The notes under the pieces were generated by a model, which did no database searches, had not been told where the DNA came from, and saw nothing but the letters and a program-made list of their open reading frames with translations. A stretch of DNA of 45,315 nucleotides from Elusimicrobiota bacterium (GTDB taxonomy: Bacteria; Elusimicrobiota; Elusimicrobia; UBA1565; UBA9628), in the NCBI GenBank assembly GCA_023249675.1, contig JAHFCE010000025.1:1-45315 (forward strand), written 5' to 3'. This document shows positions 6,872 through 44,681 of the stretch, piece after piece. The position numbers and the translations under genes were made by a program. Numbering within the stretch: the first letter of the stretch is position 1; the number at the start of each line of letters is the position of its first letter.

Positions 6872-7841
6872 GATCACCGTGCTCGGAGGCGGTCTGTGGG
6901 GATGCGTCCTCGCCCAGCACCTGGCCAACAAAGGAGCGCGGGTACGGCTGTGGGAATTCGTTCCGGCGCTGGCTGAGTCGTTGAAAACAACGCGTCGTCA
7001 TGCGCACATCCCCGGCTTTCGTTTGGACAGCGCCATCAAGGTCACCCACGATTTAGTCGAGGCGTGTCAAGACGTTGATGTTTTGTTGTTTGTGCTCCCT
7101 TCACGGGCTCTCGCGGCGACGGCGAAAAATATTCGCAAGCTCGTCGCTTTGAAAAAAACAGCCGTCGCGGTGAACGCGTCCAAGGGCGTCGAACCCGGTA
7201 CGTTGGCCACGATGGGGGACGTGATCGCCCGCGAGATCCCATCGCTCCGCGGAAAAGTTTGGACCTTGACCGGCCCGAGCTTCGCCCGGGAGGTGGCGCG
7301 CGGCGTGCCGACCGGCCTTTTGCTCGGCGGCCCGTCAGGATCTCGTGCGAAGGCACTCGTATCAATATTCGACGGCGGCGCGCTGAACGTGACGCATTGG
7401 CCGGACCGGACCGGCGTCGAGCTGGGCGGTTCCTTGAAGAATGCGATCGCGATCGGCGCGGGCATATTAGACGGACTGGGCACGGGAGCCAACACCAAGG
7501 CGGCTTTGCTCGTGCAGGGACTCGCCGAGATGTCGCGCCTCATCCGCGCGCGCGGGGGACGCGCCGACACGATTTATGGGCTCGCGGGCTTGGGCGACTT
7601 GATCGCGACCGGGACCTCCCCCGAGTCGCGAAACCGGAGCTTCGGTGAAAAATTGGGGGGAGGCCTCACGCCCCGCCGCGCATTGACGCAAATTCCGACC
7701 GTGGTGGAAGGCATCGAGGCCGCCGCCGGCGCGCGCGCGCTGTGCCGGCGCCTGAAAGTCAAGGCGCCTTTGCTCGAGGCGGTCTGGCGCGCGACGCGCG
7801 GCGCGAGCGCTCGCGGCGTGCTGAAGTCCTTGGGATTTTAA
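6855..7841 (+). CDS. gpsA: Glycerol-3-phosphate dehydrogenase [NAD(P)+]
   Basis: A 328-residue cytosolic enzyme reducing dihydroxyacetone phosphate to sn-glycerol-3-phosphate, the substrate of the adjacent PlsY. Evidence includes the N-terminal nucleotide-binding TVLGGGLWG, the family block GPSFAREVA, LGGSLKNAIAIGAGILDG with the catalytic-lysine region, and YGLAGLGDLIATGTS with SRNRSFG. The frame is open further upstream, but ATG 6855 gives the normal length and places the Rossmann motif at the N-terminus. It overlaps plsY by 17 bp. Some stretches look less G+C-rich than neighbouring genes, but the protein is intact. Confidence 0.95.
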   Translation: MAPRHKITVLGGGLWGCVLAQHLANKGARVRLWEFVPALAESLKTTRRHAHIPGFRLDSAIKVTHDLVEACQDVDVLLFVLPSRALAATAKNIRKLVALKKTAVAVNASKGVEPGTLATMGDVIAREIPSLRGKVWTLTGPSFAREVARGVPTGLLLGGPSGSRAKALVSIFDGGALNVTHWPDRTGVELGGSLKNAIAIGAGILDGLGTGANTKAALLVQGLAEMSRLIRARGGRADTIYGLAGLGDLIATGTSPESRNRSFGEKLGGGLTPRRALTQIPTVVEGIEAAAGARALCRRLKVKAPLLEAVWRATRGASARGVLKSLGF

Positions 7842-34914: not shown

Positions 34915-36060
34915 ATGAAAGAAATAAACCCTGTTGTGTGCCTGCTGGGAGCCGCTCTCCTGCTCCTCCTGTCGCCGGCAAGGACCTTGTTTGCGGCGAA
35001 CCTCGATCCCGTTCACAAGAAAGAGCAGATTGAACGCGAATTAAAATACCTGCGTTTAGACCGGAACGCCGCTCTCACGAAAGAGTTGGAAGAACTCAAT
35101 GGGTCCTGGGCCGATTACCTTCACCCCTTTGAAACCCCGGAAAGGCGCGGACAGCTGGAGCGGCAGATCAGAACGGAAATCCCGCAGAAGATCGCCGCCC
35201 TGGAAAGCGAGCTAGCCGAGCTTGTTCGTCATGCGACCGTCCACCGCATCACGACACAGGGGCTATCTGAGACTGACCTTTCTTCTGTGCAAGGAAGCAG
35301 CGCATATTTTTTTCACAACGACCGCGTTTACCTGTTTGACGGCGATGCGGCGTTCGAAGCCTGGTTCTCGGAAAATCATATTCCTCCCTCGGAACGGGTC
35401 GACTACTACGCCAGCAAAGACCCGACGCTCAGGCGCTGTCTTGCAAATCCCGGGGTTTTCCCCGACAACTTTATTTCCGTTCAATACAAATCCCAGGGGA
35501 AATACCCGAATATTTGGGGCACCTATGCGAAAAGCCCTGTCCAATACTCGCTGAGAAAGACCAGCGAAGGGCGGATTCATATCATCATGAAGCTTTATTT
35601 GAAGTATTCAGGCCCTGAGGAGGAGCGGGGCGAGACCTTGGGGCAAATGAAGGATGTCTTCTCCTGCGTCGAAGATGTCTATGCGCGCAGCGGACTACAG
35701 CTCAATCTATTTTACAACGACGGGAGTTCTTATGGCGTCACCCCCTTGGAGAGCGACCACATCATTACACTCGAAAATGGGGAGGTGATTCGAGGGTATT
35801 ACGAGCTATGGGCCATGAAAAAAGTAGGGGATCATGGGGTAAAACTCACACCCGCAAAGCTGTGCACTCAAACGACTCACGAGATCAGCCACCTTCTTGG
35901 ACTCGACGACCTCTATCCCGATCCCGCTTACCCGACCCGCCCGGTGGGGCCGCCCGATGCGATCAATTACTGCACCTACAGCTCCACGCCCCTAGTCTAT
36001 AAGATTTATCCCGAGGACATGAAAATTATTGTCTCCCCGCTTTGCGGCAGCGCATTCTAG
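34915..36060 (+). CDS. Exported metzincin-like zinc metalloprotease
   Basis: A 381-residue protein with an N-terminal signal sequence (VVCLLGAALLLLLSPARTLFA), then a charged, probably coiled-coil segment (KKEQIERELKYLRLDRNAALTKELEELN). The zinc motif HEISHLLGLDD (H322, E323, H326, with the third ligand position D332) has the HExxHxxGxxD form of metzincins, where Asp may replace the third His. No Met-turn is obvious (INYCTYSS lies where it is expected). Four cysteines near the end could form disulfides. The gene is clearly less G+C-rich than its neighbours, which suggests acquisition. Substrate unknown. Confidence 0.8.
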   Translation: MKEINPVVCLLGAALLLLLSPARTLFAANLDPVHKKEQIERELKYLRLDRNAALTKELEELNGSWADYLHPFETPERRGQLERQIRTEIPQKIAALESELAELVRHATVHRITTQGLSETDLSSVQGSSAYFFHNDRVYLFDGDAAFEAWFSENHIPPSERVDYYASKDPTLRRCLANPGVFPDNFISVQYKSQGKYPNIWGTYAKSPVQYSLRKTSEGRIHIIMKLYLKYSGPEEERGETLGQMKDVFSCVEDVYARSGLQLNLFYNDGSSYGVTPLESDHIITLENGEVIRGYYELWAMKKVGDHGVKLTPAKLCTQTTHEISHLLGLDDLYPDPAYPTRPVGPPDAINYCTYSSTPLVYKIYPEDMKIIVSPLCGSAF

Positions 36061-36086: not shown

Positions 36087-36779
36087 ATGCCCACCCCCCT
36101 GAAGATCGCGGTCTGCGGCGCCTCGGGACGCACGGGGTCTCGCGTCGCGGCGCTCGCCGCCGTGGATCCGCGCTTCCATCTGCTGGCGCGCATCGAGCGC
36201 GCGCAGGCGTCCGCATTCGAGGATGAAGTCGGCGCCTGCGGCGCGGTGATCGACTTCACCACACCCGAGTCCTGCGTGAAGTTCGCCGCCTCGTGCGGAC
36301 GCGCGAAAGTCCCCTTCGTGACCGGGACCACGGGCCTCACCGACGTTCAGCGCGCCCAGGTCGCCGCCGCCGCGCGCAAGACCGCCGTGTTCATGGCCCC
36401 CAATTTCAGCCGCGGCGTGACCTCGCTTTTGCATCTCGCCGAGGTCGCCGCGCGACATCTTGCCGAGTATGACGCCGCGATCCTCGAGACGCATCACAAG
36501 ACGAAGAAGGACGCGCCCTCGGGGACGGCCCTGCGCCTGGCGCAGGCGGTCAGCGCGGGCCGCCGCAGCGATAAGACCGTGCCGACGTCCTCGATCCGCA
36601 TCGGCGATGTCATCGGCGATCATAGCCTCGTTTTAGCCGGGCCCTTCGAGCGCCTCACGCTCTCGCACTGCGCGCAGTCGCGCGACGCGTTCGCGCTCGG
36701 CGCGCTTGAAGCGGCACTCTGGACCGCGCGCAAGCGCCCGGGGCTCTACGACATGCTCGACCTGATGGGACTGCGGTGA
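36087..36779 (+). CDS. dapB: 4-hydroxy-tetrahydrodipicolinate reductase
   Basis: A 230-residue NAD(P)H enzyme of the diaminopimelate/lysine pathway, which also includes lysA in this window. The nucleotide motif is GASGRTGS near the N-terminus; DFTTPES, VTGTTGL, MAPNFSRGV and the catalytic ETHHKTKKDAPSGTA block follow in order. It is slightly shorter than typical (about 240-270). ATG 36087 gives the correct N-terminus; the frame's earlier ATG-like start lies inside the upstream gene. The stop overlaps the next gene (GTGA). Confidence 0.95.
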   Translation: MPTPLKIAVCGASGRTGSRVAALAAVDPRFHLLARIERAQASAFEDEVGACGAVIDFTTPESCVKFAASCGRAKVPFVTGTTGLTDVQRAQVAAAARKTAVFMAPNFSRGVTSLLHLAEVAARHLAEYDAAILETHHKTKKDAPSGTALRLAQAVSAGRRSDKTVPTSSIRIGDVIGDHSLVLAGPFERLTLSHCAQSRDAFALGALEAALWTARKRPGLYDMLDLMGLR

Positions 36780-37051
36780 GAACGCCCAAGCTCTGGAAGT
36801 CTTGGGTCGCCCTCTTCGCGGAGGAAAGTCCCGAGGAGCCGCGCTTCGATCCGGTCCATCTCGCCGTCGTTCTTGTCGTCTGCCAAGCCGCCGTCGGCGC
36901 CTTGTTCTGGCTCCTGTGGACCGCGATGGTCTATGAGGGCGGTTTCTGCGCCGGCGAGGGCTGGTTCGGCAACGCCCTCGCGCTGATCATCCTCGCCGTG
37001 ATCGTCGAAGCCCTGCGGCGTGCGGACCGCCGCGCGCGCAAAGCGAAGTGA
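36776..37051 (+). CDS. Small membrane protein of unknown function
   Basis: A 91-residue protein, GTG start in a GTGA overlap with dapB. Two hydrophobic segments are seen (VHLAVVLVVCQAAVGALFWLLW and ALALIILAVIVEAL) separated by a short loop with GGFCAGEGWFGN. The C-terminus is basic (RRADRRARKAK). No family was recognised. It sits between dapB and folK with overlaps on both sides, so it is co-translated. Confidence 0.75.
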   Translation: MRTPKLWKSWVALFAEESPEEPRFDPVHLAVVLVVCQAAVGALFWLLWTAMVYEGGFCAGEGWFGNALALIILAVIVEALRRADRRARKAK

Positions 37052-37545
37052 AGTCTCGCCGCGCCTTGCTGCTGCTCGGCGCGAATCTCGGCAACAGAAC
37101 CTCGGCCTTACGCCGTGCCGTTGCGGGCCTCAACCGCCTCGAAGGCTGCCGCGTGCTCAAAACCTCGCGCCGGTATGAAACCGCACCGGTCGGTCCCAGC
37201 GACAAACCTTACTTGAATCAAGCCGTCGAGATCTCAACCGATCGCACCGCGATCGGCCTGCTCATCGAGGCCAAACGCCTCGAGGCCGCCGCCGGCCGTC
37301 GGCCCGGCATCCGCTGGGGCGCCCGCGCGCTCGACGTCGACATCCTCGCCCTGGGTAATGAACGCGTGCGCACGTCCTGGTTGAGCCTCCCGCATCCGGC
37401 GACGGCTGGCCGGGCCTTCGCCTTGGCGCCGCTGGCCGACATCGCCCCCGCCTTCAAGCCCGGCGGCCGCCGCACGGTGCGCTCCTTGCTCGCGGCTATG
37501 AAGCCGGACCCGCGAATTGTTAAACTGTGGCGAAATGGCCGATAA
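37048..37545 (+). CDS. folK: 2-amino-4-hydroxy-6-hydroxymethyldihydropteridine pyrophosphokinase
   Basis: A 165-residue folate-pathway enzyme adding pyrophosphate from ATP to the pterin alcohol. Motifs: LLLGANLGNR at the N-terminus, TSRRYETAPVG, YLNQAVEI, and the signature RWGARALDVDILALG with the metal-binding Asp pair, then LPHPATAGRAF. Length is normal. The GTG start overlaps the upstream stop (GTGA), and the end overlaps panB by 11 bp. Confidence 0.95.
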   Translation: MKSRRALLLLGANLGNRTSALRRAVAGLNRLEGCRVLKTSRRYETAPVGPSDKPYLNQAVEISTDRTAIGLLIEAKRLEAAAGRRPGIRWGARALDVDILALGNERVRTSWLSLPHPATAGRAFALAPLADIAPAFKPGGRRTVRSLLAAMKPDPRIVKLWRNGR

Positions 37546-38371
37546 GACCCCGCCTGCCGACCCCAAAGCCGTCACGGTCAGCACGTTGCTCGACCTCAAG
37601 CGCAAGGGCGTCAAGATCGCGATGCTCACGGCCTACGATTGTCCGACCGCGCGGCTGGCCGAAGAGGCGGGCGTGGACGTGATCCTCGTCGGCGACTCGG
37701 TCGGCATGACGAAACTGGGCTACGAGAGCACTTTGCCCGTCACGATCGAGGAGATGCTCCACCATACGAAGGCGGTCAAGCGCGGCGTCTCTCGCGCCCT
37801 GCTTGTGACCGACATGCCTTACCTCAGCTACGAGGTCGATCTGAAAGAGGCCATGCGCAACGCCGGCCGCCTCTTGAAGGAAGGCGGCGCGCACGCGGTC
37901 AAGGTCGAGGGCGGCAGAGAAGTCGCCGCGACGATCAAGGAGTTCCTCAAGATCAACGTTCCCGTGTTCGGACATCTCGGCCTCACGCCGCAGGCGGTCA
38001 ATCGCCTCGGCGGCTACAAGGTCCAGGGCCGCCGTCCCGAGGACGCCGAGAAGATCCTGACCGAAGCGCGCATTCTCGAGGGCGCGGGATGCTGCGCCGT
38101 CGTGCTTGAGTGCGTGCCGGCAAGCCTCGCGAAGGAAATCACCAAGCGCCTGCAGATCCCCACGATCGGCATCGGCGCGGGCCCGCACTGCGACGGGCAG
38201 GTGCTGGTCAGCGACGACATACTGGGCCTCTCCGCGGCGGGCCCCACCAAGTTCGTCAAACGCTACGCCGACCTGCGCGCGCAGTCGCTCAAGGCGATCG
38301 GCGACTACTGCCGCGAAGTCCGCGACGGGTCGTTTCCCGGCCCCGAGCATTCGTTCACCTCCCAGCGATGA
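37535..38371 (+). CDS. panB: 3-methyl-2-oxobutanoate hydroxymethyltransferase
   Basis: A 278-residue enzyme making ketopantoate in pantothenate/CoA synthesis. Signature parts: MLTAYDCPTARLAEEAG, ILVGDSVGMTKLGYEST, HHTKAV, VTDMPYLSY, VKVEGGRE, PVFGHLGLTPQAVN and IGIGAGPHCDGQVLVSDD. ATG 37535 was preferred to an in-frame TTG at 37517. It overlaps folK by 11 bp and the hydrolase by 4 bp (ATGA). panC is two genes downstream; panE and panD are not in the window. Confidence 0.96.
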   Translation: MADKTPPADPKAVTVSTLLDLKRKGVKIAMLTAYDCPTARLAEEAGVDVILVGDSVGMTKLGYESTLPVTIEEMLHHTKAVKRGVSRALLVTDMPYLSYEVDLKEAMRNAGRLLKEGGAHAVKVEGGREVAATIKEFLKINVPVFGHLGLTPQAVNRLGGYKVQGRRPEDAEKILTEARILEGAGCCAVVLECVPASLAKEITKRLQIPTIGIGAGPHCDGQVLVSDDILGLSAAGPTKFVKRYADLRAQSLKAIGDYCREVRDGSFPGPEHSFTSQR

Positions 38372-39246
38372 TTTGGCTGGCCGCAGCGCTCGCCCTCGCC
38401 GCGGCCGTGTACGGCCTTTGCTGGTGGGGCGCGGGCATCATCCTGCATCCACCGGGGATGTCGCCGATGGAGATCTTCCCCGAGCAGTTCGGCCTGCGCT
38501 ACGAGAAGATCGCGTTCAAGACGCGCGACGGCCTCGAGCTCAAGGGCTGGTTCATCCCCTCGATGACCGGAGATACGCGCACCGTTCTGATGTGCCACGG
38601 CTGGGGCGATAACAAAGGAGAACTGCTCCAACAAACCTATTTTCTCAATGCAAGCGGCGGCTTCAACCTGATGTACTTCGACTTCCGCTCGCACGGCGAG
38701 AGCGAAGGCGAGATCACGACGATCGGCGGCCTCGAGACGATCGACTTCGACGCGGCCGTGGACTGGCTTGAGACGAACCGCCCGGAGCAGGCCCGCAGCG
38801 TCGGCGTGTTCGGTCTGTCCATGGGCGCGGCCGTGACCGTCGCCGCGATGCCGAAGCACCCGGATCTACGCTGTGCGGTCGTTGAGAGCCCGTTCTCCGA
38901 TTACCGCACCGTCATCAAGCGCTGGGCCTGGAACCACTTCAAGGTCCCCTATTATCCGCTCGTGGCCCTGACCTTGCTCATCCTGCGCTCGCGCGTGAAA
39001 GATCCCGAAATCGACTCGTTCAACCCGGTCGAGGCCGCGCCGCATATCTCGCCACGTCCGCTGTTCGTCATCGGCGGCGTCAACGACCGCCTGATGACCC
39101 CCGAGGACGTGAAGAAGGTCTTCGCGGCCACGCGCGAGCCCAAGCAGCTCTGGATGGTCCCCGGCGCCCAGCACGCGGGGTGCCGCGAAGCCGCGGGCCT
39201 CGAGTACGAGACCCGCGTCATCGGCTTCTTCTCCAGGAACCTGTGA
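38368..39246 (+). CDS. Alpha/beta hydrolase, membrane-anchored
   Basis: A 292-residue protein beginning with a membrane or signal-anchor segment (WLAAALALAAAVYGLCWWGAGIIL). The serine hydrolase core follows: MCHGWGDNKGE for the oxyanion region, the nucleophile elbow FGLSMGAA, Asp in GGVNDRLMTPED and His in GAQHAG, in family order. The substrate is unknown; related proteins are annotated as BAAT/peptidase S9-like or YqkD-type hydrolases. It lies between panB and panC with 4-bp and 2-bp spacing, so it is expressed with pantothenate genes, but a role in that pathway is not implied. Confidence 0.85.
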   Translation: MIWLAAALALAAAVYGLCWWGAGIILHPPGMSPMEIFPEQFGLRYEKIAFKTRDGLELKGWFIPSMTGDTRTVLMCHGWGDNKGELLQQTYFLNASGGFNLMYFDFRSHGESEGEITTIGGLETIDFDAAVDWLETNRPEQARSVGVFGLSMGAAVTVAAMPKHPDLRCAVVESPFSDYRTVIKRWAWNHFKVPYYPLVALTLLILRSRVKDPEIDSFNPVEAAPHISPRPLFVIGGVNDRLMTPEDVKKVFAATREPKQLWMVPGAQHAGCREAAGLEYETRVIGFFSRNL

Positions 39247-39248
39247 CC

Positions 39249-40049
39249 ATGATTCCGGTCGTCCGCACCAAGAAAGCGCTCGCGCGTCTCGTGACGCGTT
39301 GGCGAGAAAACCGCCTGTCCATCGGCTTCGTGCCCACGATGGGTGCTTTGCACGCGGGTCACGCAGCGCTCGTGCGCCGAGCCGCCGCCGAGAACGACCG
39401 CGTTCTCGTGTCTCTCTTCGTGAATCCGCTGCAGTTCGGCCCCCACGAGGACTACAACCGCTATCCTCGCGCGCTGCCCGCCGACCACCGGCTCGCGGCC
39501 GCCGCGGGAGCCGCCGCCGTCTACGCCCCATCGGCGGAGGAGATGTACCCGAAAGGTTTCCACACTCATGTCGAGGTCGAGGGGCTCTCGGACCTCTACT
39601 GCGGGAAATACCGCCCCGGACATTTTCGCGGCGTGGCCACGGTCGTGCTGAAACTGTTCAATCAGGTCCACCCCGACCGGGCCTACTTCGGCGAAAAGGA
39701 CTGGCAGCAGGTCCGCATACTCGAGGACATGATCCGCGACCTTGACGTCAATGTGACTCTTGTGCGCGTGGGAATCGTGCGCGAGAAGGACGGCCTCGCC
39801 CTGTCAAGCCGCAACGCCTCTCTGTCCCCCGCCGAACGCCGCGCCGCTCCCGCCCTGCGCCGCGCCCTAGAGGCGGGCCGCCGGGAAGCCCAGCGGCCCC
39901 ATGCGCGGGCGCGGACGATCGCCGCCGCGGTGCGCCGCGCGCTATCGGGAACCAGCCTGAAAGCACAATACGCGGCCGTCTGGAAAGGCCGACTGCTGGC
40001 CGCCGCCACTTTGGGGCGCACCCGTCTGATTGACAACCTTCCGATCTAA
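39249..40049 (+). CDS. panC: Pantothenate synthetase (pantoate-beta-alanine ligase)
   Basis: A 266-residue ATP-dependent ligase. Motifs: FVPTMGALHAGHAAL with the nucleotide-binding HxGH, VNPLQFGPHEDYNRYPR, GKYRPGHFRGVATVV, YFGEKDWQQV and LALSSRNASLS. ATG 39249, 2 bp after the hydrolase stop, gives the standard N-terminus. The C-terminal domain is Arg/Ala-rich but intact. The -35 of the next operon lies in its last codons. Confidence 0.96.
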   Translation: MIPVVRTKKALARLVTRWRENRLSIGFVPTMGALHAGHAALVRRAAAENDRVLVSLFVNPLQFGPHEDYNRYPRALPADHRLAAAAGAAAVYAPSAEEMYPKGFHTHVEVEGLSDLYCGKYRPGHFRGVATVVLKLFNQVHPDRAYFGEKDWQQVRILEDMIRDLDVNVTLVRVGIVREKDGLALSSRNASLSPAERRAAPALRRALEAGRREAQRPHARARTIAAAVRRALSGTSLKAQYAAVWKGRLLAAATLGRTRLIDNLPI

Positions 40050-40058
40050 AGTTACGAT
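40030..40058 (+). promoter_or_regulatory. Promoter of the HAMP-helical-PDZ operon (leaderless type)
   Basis: A perfect TTGACA (40030-40035) is followed after 17 bp by TACGAT (40053-40058). The -10 ends 6 nt before the GTG start at 40065, so transcription should begin on or next to the start codon. No Shine-Dalgarno is present. Confidence 0.75.
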
Positions 40059-40064
40059 AACCCG

Positions 40065-40610
40065 GTGAAGCCCTCCTATAAGAGGCGGCAATACTGGGTC
40101 GACGCCCCCCTCCAGCTCCAAATGGTCGGTTTCGTCGTCCTGTTGGTTTCCGCGAGCTTGCTCTTGACCGCGTTCTCCGTGTTCCGCGGCATCCAGGAAG
40201 CCTCGGCCTCCTCCCGCCAGATCTTCCACTCCCTCGAGTGGATCAAAGGCGCCCTGCGCGCCCCGTTGCTGCTCGCGTCCGCGATCTCTCTTCTGGCCGG
40301 CGGCCTCGTCACTTTGTTCTGGTCGCACCGCTTCGCGGGCCCCCTGCGCGTGATCTCCGCCGGCGTCGCCCGCGTGCGCCACGGAAATTTTTCCGTGCCC
40401 GTGCGCGTCCGCGCCACGGACGCGCATCAAGAGTTCGTCCGCGAGTTCCAACTCATGCAGGACGAACTGCGCAAGATGATCTCGGCCGATCGCGCGCACG
40501 TGGCCGAGGCCGTCGCCCTGCTCGAAGAGTCCGAGAGGCGCAAGCCCTCAGACGACATCGGCAAGGCCCTCGATCACTTGCGCCAAGCCTGCGCGAAGTA
40601 CCACCTCTGA
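40065..40610 (+). CDS. Orphan HAMP-domain membrane protein
   Basis: A 181-residue protein, GTG start. Two membrane segments (LQMVGFVVLLVSASLLLTAF and PLLLASAISLLAGGLVTLF) flank a short periplasmic part, followed by a HAMP-like linker (HRFAGPLRVISAGVARVRHGNFSVPVRVRATD, then helix EFVREFQLMQDELRKM) and a charged helical end. No kinase, cyclase or methyl-accepting domain follows, so it would have to act through a partner. Two exported proteins are encoded immediately downstream. Role unknown; envelope sensing is inferred. Confidence 0.75.
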   Translation: MKPSYKRRQYWVDAPLQLQMVGFVVLLVSASLLLTAFSVFRGIQEASASSRQIFHSLEWIKGALRAPLLLASAISLLAGGLVTLFWSHRFAGPLRVISAGVARVRHGNFSVPVRVRATDAHQEFVREFQLMQDELRKMISADRAHVAEAVALLEESERRKPSDDIGKALDHLRQACAKYHL

Positions 40611-42853
40611 TGCGAGCCGCGCTCCTCGCGGCTCTCTTCATCATATCCCCCGTCTTCGCCGCCGACGCTCCAGCGCCAAGCCCGGCCCTCGCCCTCCTCA
40701 ATGACAGCTTCGGCGAGCCCGGTGTTGAAACGCTCGCCGCGCGCGGGATCATCGTGCTGCAGGGCAAGCGCGGCGCGCGCCGCCTGGCCGCCGTCCACTG
40801 GAAGGCGCTGGGCACGCTCGCGCACGCGGCGTCATCCTGCTTGGCTCTGAGCGCCGCCGCCGACGCGCTCGGGCATGAACCAGCGCCGGCGGCTCCTGTT
40901 TTGGACCTTTCCGCCTGCCGCGCCTTGCCGGCGGACGGCCTCATGACGCCGTCCCTGCACGCGCTCGCCGCAGCGCTTGAGGCCGGGCACGAGGAGCGCT
41001 GGGCCCTGCATCTCGCCAGCGCTTCGCCCTCCGAAGCGCCCGGACAAGCGAACCTCTTCGACACCGCCTGGGGCAGAGATCTCACAGCGCGCCGCCATGC
41101 CGACGCCCTCGAAAACACGGCGCCGCTCGTCAAGCCGATGTTCGACGACCTTCTCGCGGGTCCGCGTCCAGACAAGGGGGCCGCGGCGCTCTTCGCCGCC
41201 GAAGCCTCCGCCCGAGGCGCCGCCTCTTCTGAGACCCTCCTTGTCGATGACGCCGCGCGCGGGACGCTGTCCGAGGAACTGCGCGAGCGACTGCGCCGCA
41301 CCCTCTCTCATGAGCGCCGCCGCTGGGCGGCGGCGACGGCGAGCGCCGCCGCCGCCGAACTTCTCGGTAAAACCTCCGTGAAGCGCGAGCTCGAGGACCT
41401 GCGCGGTGCGGCCAAAGCCCTCTCCTCCCGTCCCAATCTTCCCGCCGCGCTCGAGGCAGCCCTCAGCCGCGCGGGCTCCACCTCGGACGGAGCCCGCCTG
41501 AGATCAGCCGGCCTGCATCTTCAGGAACCCGTGCGTCTCGGCCAGCACGAGCTCGGCGATGAGGCGATCGTCTCCGGCGCATACTGGGTCGACGGCCTCA
41601 AGGAAAACGACGCGGTCGAAGTCGAGGAAACGATCGTCCTTGAAACCGAGCGGGGGTTCTCCTCCACGGAAACCCACGCCCATAAGCGCCGCAACGGCGG
41701 ACCCTACCCTTTCTCACGCGCCGTCAAGATCGACGAGACCCGCTCTTTTGCGGTCCGTTCTTTGGTTTCAGCGGGAGGTTTCCTCGTCGCCGAACGCGTC
41801 GAAGTGCCGCTCGCCCGCGATTTTGAGTTGGCGCTCGTCAAAGAGTCCGCGGCCGCGAGCCTGCGTGCCGGCTGCCGCCTCACGGACGCCGAAGCCGCCT
41901 ACCAAGCGCTCGAGACGCTCGTCGAAGAGCCCGCCAAGGTCAAACCGCAATACAAGGACCTGGGCCGGCGCGCGCGCAAGGCGCGAGAAGCCTCGAGGTC
42001 CGACGCCGAAACCCTGATGAAGCTCGAGGAAGCCATCGCCGCGGCCCGCGCCGACTCCGCTCCCCAGCTGTGCCGCGACGAGACCGGCCGCGTGGACGAA
42101 GCCCTCAAGCTCGCCAAGCGCCTGCCTCCCGGCTGCGACCGCGACCTTCCCGAACTGCACGCCCTGCGCGCGACGATCACGAGGCGCGCCGCCGATCAGC
42201 GCTGGTTCCTAAAGGCGTCCTCCGAAGCGCGCTCCAAGCGCAAGTCCTGCGATCTCGACGCCGCCCGCGCGCGCTGGTCTGAGGCCCTCGCCTCGCTTGA
42301 CGCCGATCCTGGCGCGCGCTGCGGCCGCGCCGCAGAAGAAGAAGTCCAAGTCAAGGCCGATGTCGCCGAGCTCGTCCGCAAGATCGCGTGGCGAGAAGAA
42401 CTCGATCAGTCCCTCACTCAGGCCGAGGCCGAAACCGCACCAGCGCGCCGCCTCGACATCCTGCGCCCGGTGACGTCCCGGCTCGGCGCCCTGAACGAGA
42501 ATTGCTTCAAGGTCGAGTCCCGCCGCGCGTCCTCTCTGTCCGTGGCGGCCGCGAAAACCTTAACCGCCCCGGCGGACAACGAACTGGCGCGCCGCCTTCC
42601 GCCCGAAAACGCCCTGGCCTCCGCCGTCGCCGAGGTCCGGGCTGAGCGCGCACGACGCCTCGAGGCCGCCGGCGCCGCGGAAAAAGCGGTCCTGGAACCG
42701 GCCGCGGCCCCCGCCGCGGAGGCTGCGAAGGCGGCCGCACCCCCTGTGGTCACCTCTGTCGCACCCGCTGCCCCGCTCACATCGGCTCCGAGAAAGCCGG
42801 CAAAGCGCCCGCAGCGCAAGACGAAGAAGGCAAAGGAAGCCGCGGCTCGATGA
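40610..42853 (+). CDS. Large exported helical protein of unknown function
   Basis: A 747-residue protein with signal peptide MRAALLAALFIISPVFA, ATG overlapping the upstream stop (TGATG). The first half is Ala/Leu-rich. A beta-like patch near 325-400 (AYWVDGLKENDAVEVEETIVLETERG) precedes helical repeats that look TPR-like and carry regularly placed cysteines (RAGCRLTDAEAAYQAL, LCRDETGRVDEALKLAKRLPPGC, KSCDLDAARARWSEAL, GARCGR, NENCFK), suggesting disulfide-stapled helices in the periplasm. The end is Pro/Ala-rich then Lys-rich. No family recognised. Confidence 0.65.
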   Translation: MRAALLAALFIISPVFAADAPAPSPALALLNDSFGEPGVETLAARGIIVLQGKRGARRLAAVHWKALGTLAHAASSCLALSAAADALGHEPAPAAPVLDLSACRALPADGLMTPSLHALAAALEAGHEERWALHLASASPSEAPGQANLFDTAWGRDLTARRHADALENTAPLVKPMFDDLLAGPRPDKGAAALFAAEASARGAASSETLLVDDAARGTLSEELRERLRRTLSHERRRWAAATASAAAAELLGKTSVKRELEDLRGAAKALSSRPNLPAALEAALSRAGSTSDGARLRSAGLHLQEPVRLGQHELGDEAIVSGAYWVDGLKENDAVEVEETIVLETERGFSSTETHAHKRRNGGPYPFSRAVKIDETRSFAVRSLVSAGGFLVAERVEVPLARDFELALVKESAAASLRAGCRLTDAEAAYQALETLVEEPAKVKPQYKDLGRRARKAREASRSDAETLMKLEEAIAAARADSAPQLCRDETGRVDEALKLAKRLPPGCDRDLPELHALRATITRRAADQRWFLKASSEARSKRKSCDLDAARARWSEALASLDADPGARCGRAAEEEVQVKADVAELVRKIAWREELDQSLTQAEAETAPARRLDILRPVTSRLGALNENCFKVESRRASSLSVAAAKTLTAPADNELARRLPPENALASAVAEVRAERARRLEAAGAAEKAVLEPAAAPAAEAAKAAAPPVVTSVAPAAPLTSAPRKPAKRPQRKTKKAKEAAAR

Positions 42854-44163
42854 AGCGCCTCTTCGCCCTCATCCTGATCGCCTCCTGCGCGTTTGCGGCG
42901 AACGCCGCACGCACGGGCGCCAAGAGGCCCGCGCGTAAATCGGCCACAAAAACGCAGTCCCCGAAGGCGCCGACGGCGGCCACCGCGACGCCGCCTTTAG
43001 CCGCCTCCCCCGAATCCCTCGATGAGATCGCGCTGTTCGGCCTGGGCGCCGGACTCACCGCCCAAGACGACGGCCTCGTCGTCGCCTCCGTGCGGCCCGG
43101 CTCGCGCGCGGACTCGGCCGGACTCAGGGCCGGGGACCGCCTCCTGCGCGTGGACGGAACCGTCTCGTCGCGCGCCGCCGTCGCGGCCCAGTTGCGCGCC
43201 TGGACGCCCGGCACGCGCCTAGCGCTCGTCGTCCGCCGCGGCCTCGAGATTCATCCTCTGGAGACCGCCCCGGTTCCTCCCGCCCGCGACTACGCGCGCG
43301 GCGGCCGCGATATGTCCGAACACGAGAAAGTCCTCGCCGCCGAACGCTCGGCTCAGGCCGTCTCAGAAGGCCGCGCCGCCGTCAAAGCCTCCGGCCCGCT
43401 GAGCGTCGCGATCCGCGCCGACCAAAACCTGTGGACGCGCTTTCCCAAGGGCCTGCCCACCGGCCTCAAGAAAGGCGACGAAATCACCGCCGAGGCCGCG
43501 ACCGGCCTGACCGTGGACGCCACGCTCGACTTCCTGGCCGTACCCCCCGGCTCCAAGCTGCGCGCGCGCGTCCTCGACGCCGTGGACGACGGCCAGACGC
43601 GCACGCTGCGCCTGGCCTTCTATGCCCTCGATCTCAACGGCGGCGGCACCTACACCACGCTCGGAGCCGCCACCGCCGTCTCCGGCGACCAGCGCATGGC
43701 CCGCGTGATCGCAGGCGGCACTTTCGTCGCGGCCGCCCCGCTTCCCGACGCCAAGCGCCGCGCACCCGTACCGGCGCTCGACGCGGACGCGCGCTTGCGC
43801 GTGCGTCTCCTCGAGCCTCTTGTCATCGATGAGCCGCCATCCTACTGGCGCGCGGGCCCCGGCCTGTGGGTCAAGACCGTCGAGGACGAGGGCCGCCGCC
43901 TCTTTGAGGTCACTCACGTGATCGCCGGACGTTCCGCCGAGACCGCGGGCCTGAAGGTCGGCGAGCGCCTCGACGCAATCGGCGGACGCTCCAGCGAAAA
44001 GATGGACTTCGCCGAAGCCATCGACCGCCTCTACGGCGCGCCGGGCTCGGACATCGAGGTTTCCGTCATTCGCGGCAAGAGCCAGACGCTCAAGCTCACG
44101 CGCGGCCTGCGCTGGTCCAACGGCAAGTCCGAACCGCTGCCAATCGCCTACACCGCGCAGTAA
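42850..44163 (+). CDS. Exported protein with two PDZ-like domains
   Basis: A 437-residue protein overlapping the upstream gene by 4 bp (ATGA). A signal peptide (MKRLFALILIASCAFAANA) and a Lys/Thr/Ala/Pro linker precede a first PDZ-like domain (LVVASVRPGSRADSAGLRAGDRLLRVDG, about 75-135). A central beta-rich part (about 175-300, PLSVAIRADQNLWTR to VIAGGTFVAAAP) follows, and a second PDZ-like domain ends the protein (VTHVIAGRSAETAGLKVGERLDAIGG, about 350-430). No protease triad is present. PDZ domains bind C-termini of partner proteins, so it may be a scaffold for the upstream exported protein. Confidence 0.78.
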   Translation: MKRLFALILIASCAFAANAARTGAKRPARKSATKTQSPKAPTAATATPPLAASPESLDEIALFGLGAGLTAQDDGLVVASVRPGSRADSAGLRAGDRLLRVDGTVSSRAAVAAQLRAWTPGTRLALVVRRGLEIHPLETAPVPPARDYARGGRDMSEHEKVLAAERSAQAVSEGRAAVKASGPLSVAIRADQNLWTRFPKGLPTGLKKGDEITAEAATGLTVDATLDFLAVPPGSKLRARVLDAVDDGQTRTLRLAFYALDLNGGGTYTTLGAATAVSGDQRMARVIAGGTFVAAAPLPDAKRRAPVPALDADARLRVRLLEPLVIDEPPSYWRAGPGLWVKTVEDEGRRLFEVTHVIAGRSAETAGLKVGERLDAIGGRSSEKMDFAEAIDRLYGAPGSDIEVSVIRGKSQTLKLTRGLRWSNGKSEPLPIAYTAQ

Positions 44164-44181: not shown

Positions 44182-44436
44182 TCATTCGTAAACGTTACTG
44201 CGATGCCCGACCGTCAGAATTAGGATCAGCACTTCTAATTTTCTGATCTTGTAGAGAATGCGCCAGTCACCGACCCGGTAAGACCAACGATCGCTGAGAA
44301 GCCCGGTCAGACGCTTGCCGAGTTCCGGATGCTCGGAAAGTCGAAGTATGGATTTGCCGACCCTTTCCTTGACCACGCGATCCAGCTTACCTATGCGATG
44401 AGCCGCTTCCTGGGTATACAGGATGCGATAGGTCAT
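44182..44436 (-). CDS. RelE-family toxin
   Basis: An 84-residue protein. TYRILYTQEAAHRIGKLDRVVKERVGKSILRL, then GKRLTGLLSDRWSYRVGDWRILYKI and LILTVGHRSNVYE follow the RelE fold, including the basic/aromatic RVGDWRILY core and terminal HR-Y residues associated with mRNA cleavage on the ribosome. It overlaps the antitoxin stop by 4 bp (ATGA). The gene is less G+C-rich than neighbours, as is common for such modules. Confidence 0.9.
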   Translation of the reverse strand: MTYRILYTQEAAHRIGKLDRVVKERVGKSILRLSEHPELGKRLTGLLSDRWSYRVGDWRILYKIRKLEVLILILTVGHRSNVYE

Positions 44437-44681
44437 TTAAAAATGTCTTCGTGCTCGACAAGGCGTTCAGCGTTCTCATCCTCTTCGGCCTTCAGGAGAG
44501 AGAGCATAAGCTTCTTGTCCGCAAGCACCTCGAGCGTTTCTAACTCTTCAGGGGACACCAGAACTGCGGACGCCGCACCGTTTCGGGTGATGATAATTCG
44601 GCCACGCTTCTTTTTGCCCAAAGATGCGATCATCTCGGGCAAGTGCGCGCGCACATAGGAAACAGGAGCTATTTTAGTCAT
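44433..44681 (-). CDS. Phd/YefM-family antitoxin
   Basis: An 82-residue protein. KIAPVSYVRAHLPEMIASLGKKKRGRIIITRNGAASAVLVSPEELETLEVL is the DNA-binding fold, followed by a helical acidic tail (KAEEDENAERLVEHEDIF) that would wrap the toxin. ATG 44681 is favoured over the longer frame because it gives the family N-terminus and lies downstream of the promoter/operator at 44701-44720. Confidence 0.9.
   Translation of the reverse strand: MTKIAPVSYVRAHLPEMIASLGKKKRGRIIITRNGAASAVLVSPEELETLEVLADKKLMLSLLKAEEDENAERLVEHEDIFK

Follow-up and report, generated by a model that had tools for sequence, protein, structure and literature searches.

Three overlapping genes behind panC in an Elusimicrobiota order comprise an always-linked pair for exported proteins and a separable gene for a small HAMP protein

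Three overlapping genes behind panC in the genome of an uncultured Elusimicrobiota bacterium, here called g1, g2, and g3, raise the question of whether they specify a single envelope system. The window, i.e., the whole stretch of DNA that was analyzed (45,315 nucleotides), belongs to a 2.6-Mb assembly that is 98.6% complete, and the locus is on contig C16. All three genes are on the plus strand: g1 (positions 40065 to 40610) starts with GTG and encodes 181 amino acids, g2 (40610 to 42853) starts with ATG, encodes 747 amino acids, and overlaps g1 by 1 nucleotide, and g3 (42850 to 44163) starts with ATG, encodes 437 amino acids, and overlaps g2 by 4 nucleotides (ATGA). They form the tail of a conserved vitamin B5/lysine cluster, dapB-folK-panB-hydrolase-panC. 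In the window, this context, which lies outside the module, is a head-to-tail run on the plus strand (36087 to 40049) consisting of dapB (36087 to 36779), orf91, folK, panB, an alpha/beta hydrolase gene, and panC (39249 to 40049), all assigned by Pfam with the sole exception of orf91. Downstream of g3, a TPR gene on the opposite strand is found in most relatives. The initial annotation had read g1, g2, and g3 as one trans-envelope sensing or scaffold system; it did not mention the panB/panC operon, the fact that the -35 box falls inside panC, or the Ig-like domain of g2 and the VirB10-like barrel of g3 that are described below.

Co-occurrence in relatives, which the initial annotation itself had set as the test, was counted across 56 genomes of the order, nearly all of the searched genomes being assemblies of varying completeness. 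Orthologues of g1, g2, and g3 were found in 33, 28, and 28 genomes, respectively. g2 and g3 occurred together in 26 genomes, and the existence of one without the other was rejected, given that the four discordant genomes all end at a contig edge at this point. The g2-g3 order and the ATGA overlap are constant in all loci read. All three genes stand in one row in 20 genomes, g1 is present without g2-g3 and with other genes directly downstream in 13, and g2-g3 is present without a g1 orthologue in 8; throughout family f2, g2-g3 directly follows panC and no g1 orthologue is found. Fisher tests over the 56 genomes, which are descriptive and ignore shared ancestry, gave p=4e-11 for g2 with g3 and p=0.28 (not significant) for g1 with g2-g3. 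These counts and tests identify g2-g3 as an obligately linked unit and g1 as separable. Thus, the test split the original proposal: g2 and g3 never part, but g1 occurs separately, and the reading of all three as a single system is not supported. The two units also differ in range, with g2-g3 confined to one order and the g1 family spread across the phylum. Candidate g2 relatives elsewhere in the phylum were rejected: a profile search of 341 genomes gave this order only, and a 39% match in genome G115 was to the low-complexity tail.

The promoter that the initial annotation placed ahead of the three genes, described as their own and of the leaderless type, was found again and extends into panC. 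This predicted sigma-70-type promoter, TTGACA-17-TACGAT (40030 to 40058, plus strand), is conserved in relatives and consists of a -35 box, TTGACA (40030 to 40035), a 17-bp spacer, and a -10 box, TACGAT (40053 to 40058), followed by 6 nucleotides to the GTG of g1. It is the top one of three promoter-like sites in 9.5 kb, where 0.5 would be expected. The -35 box lies within the last codons of panC and encodes the conserved C terminus of PanC, (L)IDN, so that conservation of the hexamer alone proves nothing. Of 32 orthologous g1 genes, 22 are preceded by the hexamer block (at most about 1 in 50 when each sequence is shuffled), and in most of these the -10 box, as TACGAT, TACTAT, TAGGAT, or TAGCAT, lies at a similar distance. 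In the source genome, 7 copies of the pattern are followed by a start codon, versus 0 for the reversed control, and the hexamer pair is absent at all examined loci of a pfkA-linked g1 paralogue.

A clean natural experiment is provided by the genus labeled g3 (L108, L169-L172, and L107), in which panB and panC are gone from the operon and dapB, folK, and the hydrolase gene are kept. The residual panC codons, (M/T)IDNTSLSC*, still carry TTGACA and TAGGAT, with the former panC stop codon sitting in the -10 box, and in two members of the genus IDN has become FDN or IDM, which alters the old coding sense but leaves both hexamers unchanged. The promoter block also remains attached to g1 in G161, where a 242-amino-acid gene on the opposite strand is inserted after panC, and in G197, where a gene for a 203-amino-acid exported protein is inserted after the hydrolase gene; in L084 and L086, the block is lost and g1 is coupled to the hydrolase gene instead. 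The promoter as a mere echo of conserved PanC codons was therefore rejected, and we take it to be real because the -10 box is kept at its distance and the block survives both the loss of panB-panC and the insertions. Given the spacing between the -10 box and the GTG, the transcript is predicted to start at or next to this codon and to be leaderless or near-leaderless. TANNNT boxes near the start codons of leaderless transcripts have been described in Deinococcus-Thermus (PMC12340547). The promoter of g1 resembles these in placing its TAnnnT box within a few bases of the start codon, whereas its full -35 TTGACA, its occurrence in Elusimicrobiota, and its embedding in an upstream coding sequence set it apart.

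The individual proteins largely match what had been said of them: a two-pass membrane HAMP protein without an output domain (g1), a 747-residue exported protein with cysteines in helical repeats (g2), and an exported protein with two PDZ-like domains (g3), all three predicted to be located in the envelope from the transmembrane (TM) segments of g1 and the export signals of g2 and g3. The two TM segments of g1 (about residues 18 to 42 and 63 to 86) are followed directly by a divergent HAMP domain and a short helical tail, and no other domain was found. The net charges of +3/0/+4 fit, under the positive-inside rule, a predicted N-in/C-in topology with both ends cytoplasmic. The periplasmic loop is about 20 residues long, with no sensor domain of its own, and no C-terminal output domain of the kind found in MCPs, histidine kinases, or cyclases is present before the protein ends at residue 181. 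Against HAMP PF00672, the window protein scores 18.1 bits, below the Pfam cutoff of 25, and it was not reported in a genome-wide HAMP search at E<=0.001. At the family level, 31 of 36 members match at E<=0.01 (best, 1.3e-10), and the family profile finds the TM-HAMP part of HtrII as its best match among solved structures (E=1.4e-9), along with the HAMP structures of NarQ and CpxA. Judged by these profile comparisons, the HAMP domain of g1 is real but divergent and is clear at the family level. Like HtrII (sensory rhodopsin II transducer), g1 has two TM helices, a short loop, and then HAMP; unlike HtrII, which runs on into a signaling domain, it stops about 60 residues past the HAMP core.

Relatives of the pfkA-linked g1 paralogue, mostly open frames of about 140 to 230 codons, were found in 110 of the 150 phylum genomes searched, in several copies in some. 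Small HAMP proteins without an output domain are therefore common across the phylum and nothing special to this locus. In the source genome, this paralogue lies in the cluster dnaE-receiver-exported protein-pfkA-HAMP-TolC-like-patatin-like-dapF-dapA (neighbors named by eye from their sequences), which is conserved in L097 (paralogue at 6961 to 7536), L098-L100, and L102-L105. A third type of small HAMP gene, in L101 (6070 to 6648), overlaps a 123-amino-acid response regulator gene and is preceded, at a distance of seven bases from its start codon, by a TATAAT box of its own. g1 (40596 to 40607) and most paralogues end in an aromatic-x-hydrophobic motif (YHL, YQL, FKL, or FKV) that resembles a PDZ ligand and is predicted to be cytoplasmic. 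This Y/F-x-L/V terminus was set aside as a ligand of the g3 PDZ domains, given its predicted cytoplasmic location and its conservation in genomes and paralogues without g3.

All g2 and g3 structures discussed here are predictions. The g2 model (mean pLDDT, 86) consists of a signal peptide, a helical region (residues 25 to 290), an Ig-like domain (294 to 402), a helical repeat (404 to 650), and a basic Ala/Pro tail that is disordered in the model. Six cysteines (C422, C488, C509, C547, C571, and C632) are invariant in all 28 g2 sequences, which are 25 to 80% identical to the window protein, and all six are located at or beside helix turns in the model. Two more, C77 and C103, are either both present or both absent, being found in the same 9 of the 28 sequences, and all eight cysteines are C-terminal to the signal peptide. 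The invariant positions at helix turns and the jointly gained or lost pair strongly suggest that the cysteines form disulfides. A search for VKOR, considered as a sign of disulfide formation, found it in no more than 5 of the 53 genomes searched and not in the source genome, and this line of argument was dropped. Residues 294 to 402 form an Ig-like beta-sandwich (Z 12.0; 2.0 A over 99 residues with 5x7g) similar in fold to Ig/FN3-type domains such as RbmA and the N-domain of cycloisomaltooligosaccharide glucanotransferase. Unlike those proteins, g2 has no catalytic module attached, and identity to them is about 8%, i.e., no sequence similarity. The structure-match list (VIA) is filled by this domain and hardly covers the helical parts, whose TPR-like helix pattern, in one helical half, was seen by eye only. 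No family match was found for g2 in Pfam or NCBIfam, nor was a Pfam TPR match found in the window protein, with one weak match in 1 of the 28 members; sequence-based matches to solved families were at chance level, and whole-model Foldseek matches (AlkC and others) had TM-scores below 0.25 and were not meaningful.

g3 (model mean pLDDT, 82) begins with a signal peptide and a linker rich in Ala, Pro, and Lys, followed by a first PDZ domain (about residues 64 to 140), a beta-domain like the VirB10 C-terminal domain (185 to 331), and a second PDZ domain (332 to 425). The two PDZ stretches are supported by a PDZ_6 match (E=7e-17) and a match to the CtpA PDZ fold, and the g3 proteins of family f2 carry a further PDZ domain at the C terminus. 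The middle domain has no family match in Pfam, and candidate sequence matches to solved families were discarded as chance level. Thus, that the locus matches no described system, as initially stated, still holds for g2 and for the middle of g3. The C-terminal tail of g2 (42800 to 42850) and the N-terminal linker of g3 (42910 to 42945) carry similar basic Ala/Pro/Lys motifs (KPAKRPQRK and AKRPARK) that are kept within the genus and not in family f2.

The explanation that we favor, with somewhat less than even confidence, is that two modules, g1 and g2-g3, share one promoter and that g2-g3 is a periplasmic scaffold/adaptor pair. g1 would belong, as one copy, to the family of small HAMP proteins of the inner membrane that spans the phylum, and it would most likely work as a HAMP dimer that relays or anchors, with input and output borrowed from partner proteins; it shares the promoter with g2-g3, but what it relays or anchors is, we infer, probably something else. 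g2 and g3 would be an inseparable, translationally coupled exported pair, with g2 most likely serving as a rigid, disulfide-braced helical platform with an Ig-like domain and g3 as a PDZ-barrel-PDZ adaptor whose PDZ grooves may bind the ends or strands of envelope proteins. Co-expression of g1 with g2-g3 from the promoter within the 3'-terminal part of panC would be independent of the pantothenate genes. g2 and g3 are made together, are exported, and consist of binding modules without recognized catalytic domains; scaffold or adaptor is their most likely role, and presumably they bind each other and their clients, forming a periplasmic complex that itself lacks protease or other enzymatic activity. 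The g2-g3 pair is new. It is an envelope module specific to one lineage, its two genes are always linked, and it unites known folds in combinations found nowhere else here (PDZ/VirB10-like barrel/PDZ, and an Ig-like domain with cysteine-clasped helices); few members of the phylum have been cultured. If the adaptor role is correct, the pair would show a protease-free use of PDZ domains in the periplasm.

A related explanation is that g2-g3 delivers substrates to a periplasmic protease whose gene lies elsewhere. In Escherichia coli, the TPR lipoprotein NlpI is paired with the PDZ protease Prc. The closest structural matches of the second PDZ domain of g3 are the PDZ domains of CtpA (Z 13.8; 1.5 A over 84 residues) and Prc, including CtpA-LbcA and Prc-adaptor complexes, and g2-g3 likewise combines a TPR-like helical protein with a PDZ partner. 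In Pseudomonas aeruginosa, the TPR lipoprotein LbcA works with the PDZ protease CtpA (PMC11021448, PMC8764530). However, g3 lacks a protease domain of the S41 or HtrA type, matching only the PDZ regions of protease models, and g2, unlike LbcA and NlpI, has no lipobox or other lipoprotein signal and instead has an Ig-like domain and conserved cysteines. The absence of a protease gene from the conserved neighborhood and of a Pfam TPR match from g2 also argues against this possibility, which we consider rather unlikely.

Also unlikely is a trans-envelope sensor built of three parts, with g2 as the periplasmic receptor, g3 as the PDZ adaptor, and g1 as the HAMP transmitter to a cytoplasmic partner. 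The genes overlap, share a promoter here, and stand in a row in 20 genomes, and g1, having only a short loop and no periplasmic sensor domain, needs a partner. Against this stand the 13 genomes in which other genes directly follow g1, the arrangement in family f2, the nonsignificant association of g1 with g2-g3, and the g1 paralogues across the phylum without g2-g3. Where all three genes coexist, a receptor-adaptor-transmitter chain is possible and nothing found requires it; as a single sensing machine, g1-g2-g3 is not supported.

The middle domain of g3 suggests another arrangement, namely, a structural complex close to the outer membrane in which g3 forms a ring via this domain, the PDZ domains serve as arms, and g2 is stacked on top. 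VirB10 C-terminal domains form rings, and the fold of g3 residues 185 to 331 matches them (Z 12.4; 3.4 A; 125 residues; 10% identity with 6gyb), together with several further type IV secretion system entries. However, Pfam TrbI (PF03743) matched none of 20 g3 sequences, and hhalign of the middle domain against TrbI proteins of the same order gave a probability of 0.6%. In the model, g3 also lacks an inner-membrane anchor and antenna helices, any helix between residues 185 and 331 being shorter than four residues. Thus, the resemblance to VirB10/TrbI is one of fold, unaccompanied by sequence-profile similarity; the domain was seen only in g3, where it is single copy, PDZ flanked, and outside secretion clusters, and the same fold could serve another purpose. 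We regard such a ring as improbable, and its extension to a new class of trans-periplasmic assembly, with an antenna-less, VirB10-like, PDZ-armed ring, a six-Cys helical brace, and HAMP coupling in part of the lineage, as more improbable still.

Small TrbI (VirB10 C-terminal) proteins of about 225 to 285 codons are encoded in 14 of 53 genomes of the order (L135-L146). Just upstream of the dapB operon in the window, a gene (34915 to 36060) encodes an exported 381-amino-acid protein with a HEISH metalloprotease-like motif. Finally, a ParE/RelE-type toxin and a Phd/YefM antitoxin are encoded on the minus strand (44182 to 44681) between g3 and the convergent TPR gene; in most relatives, g3 directly adjoins the TPR gene without this pair, and a toxin 77% identical to that of the window is present in L107.
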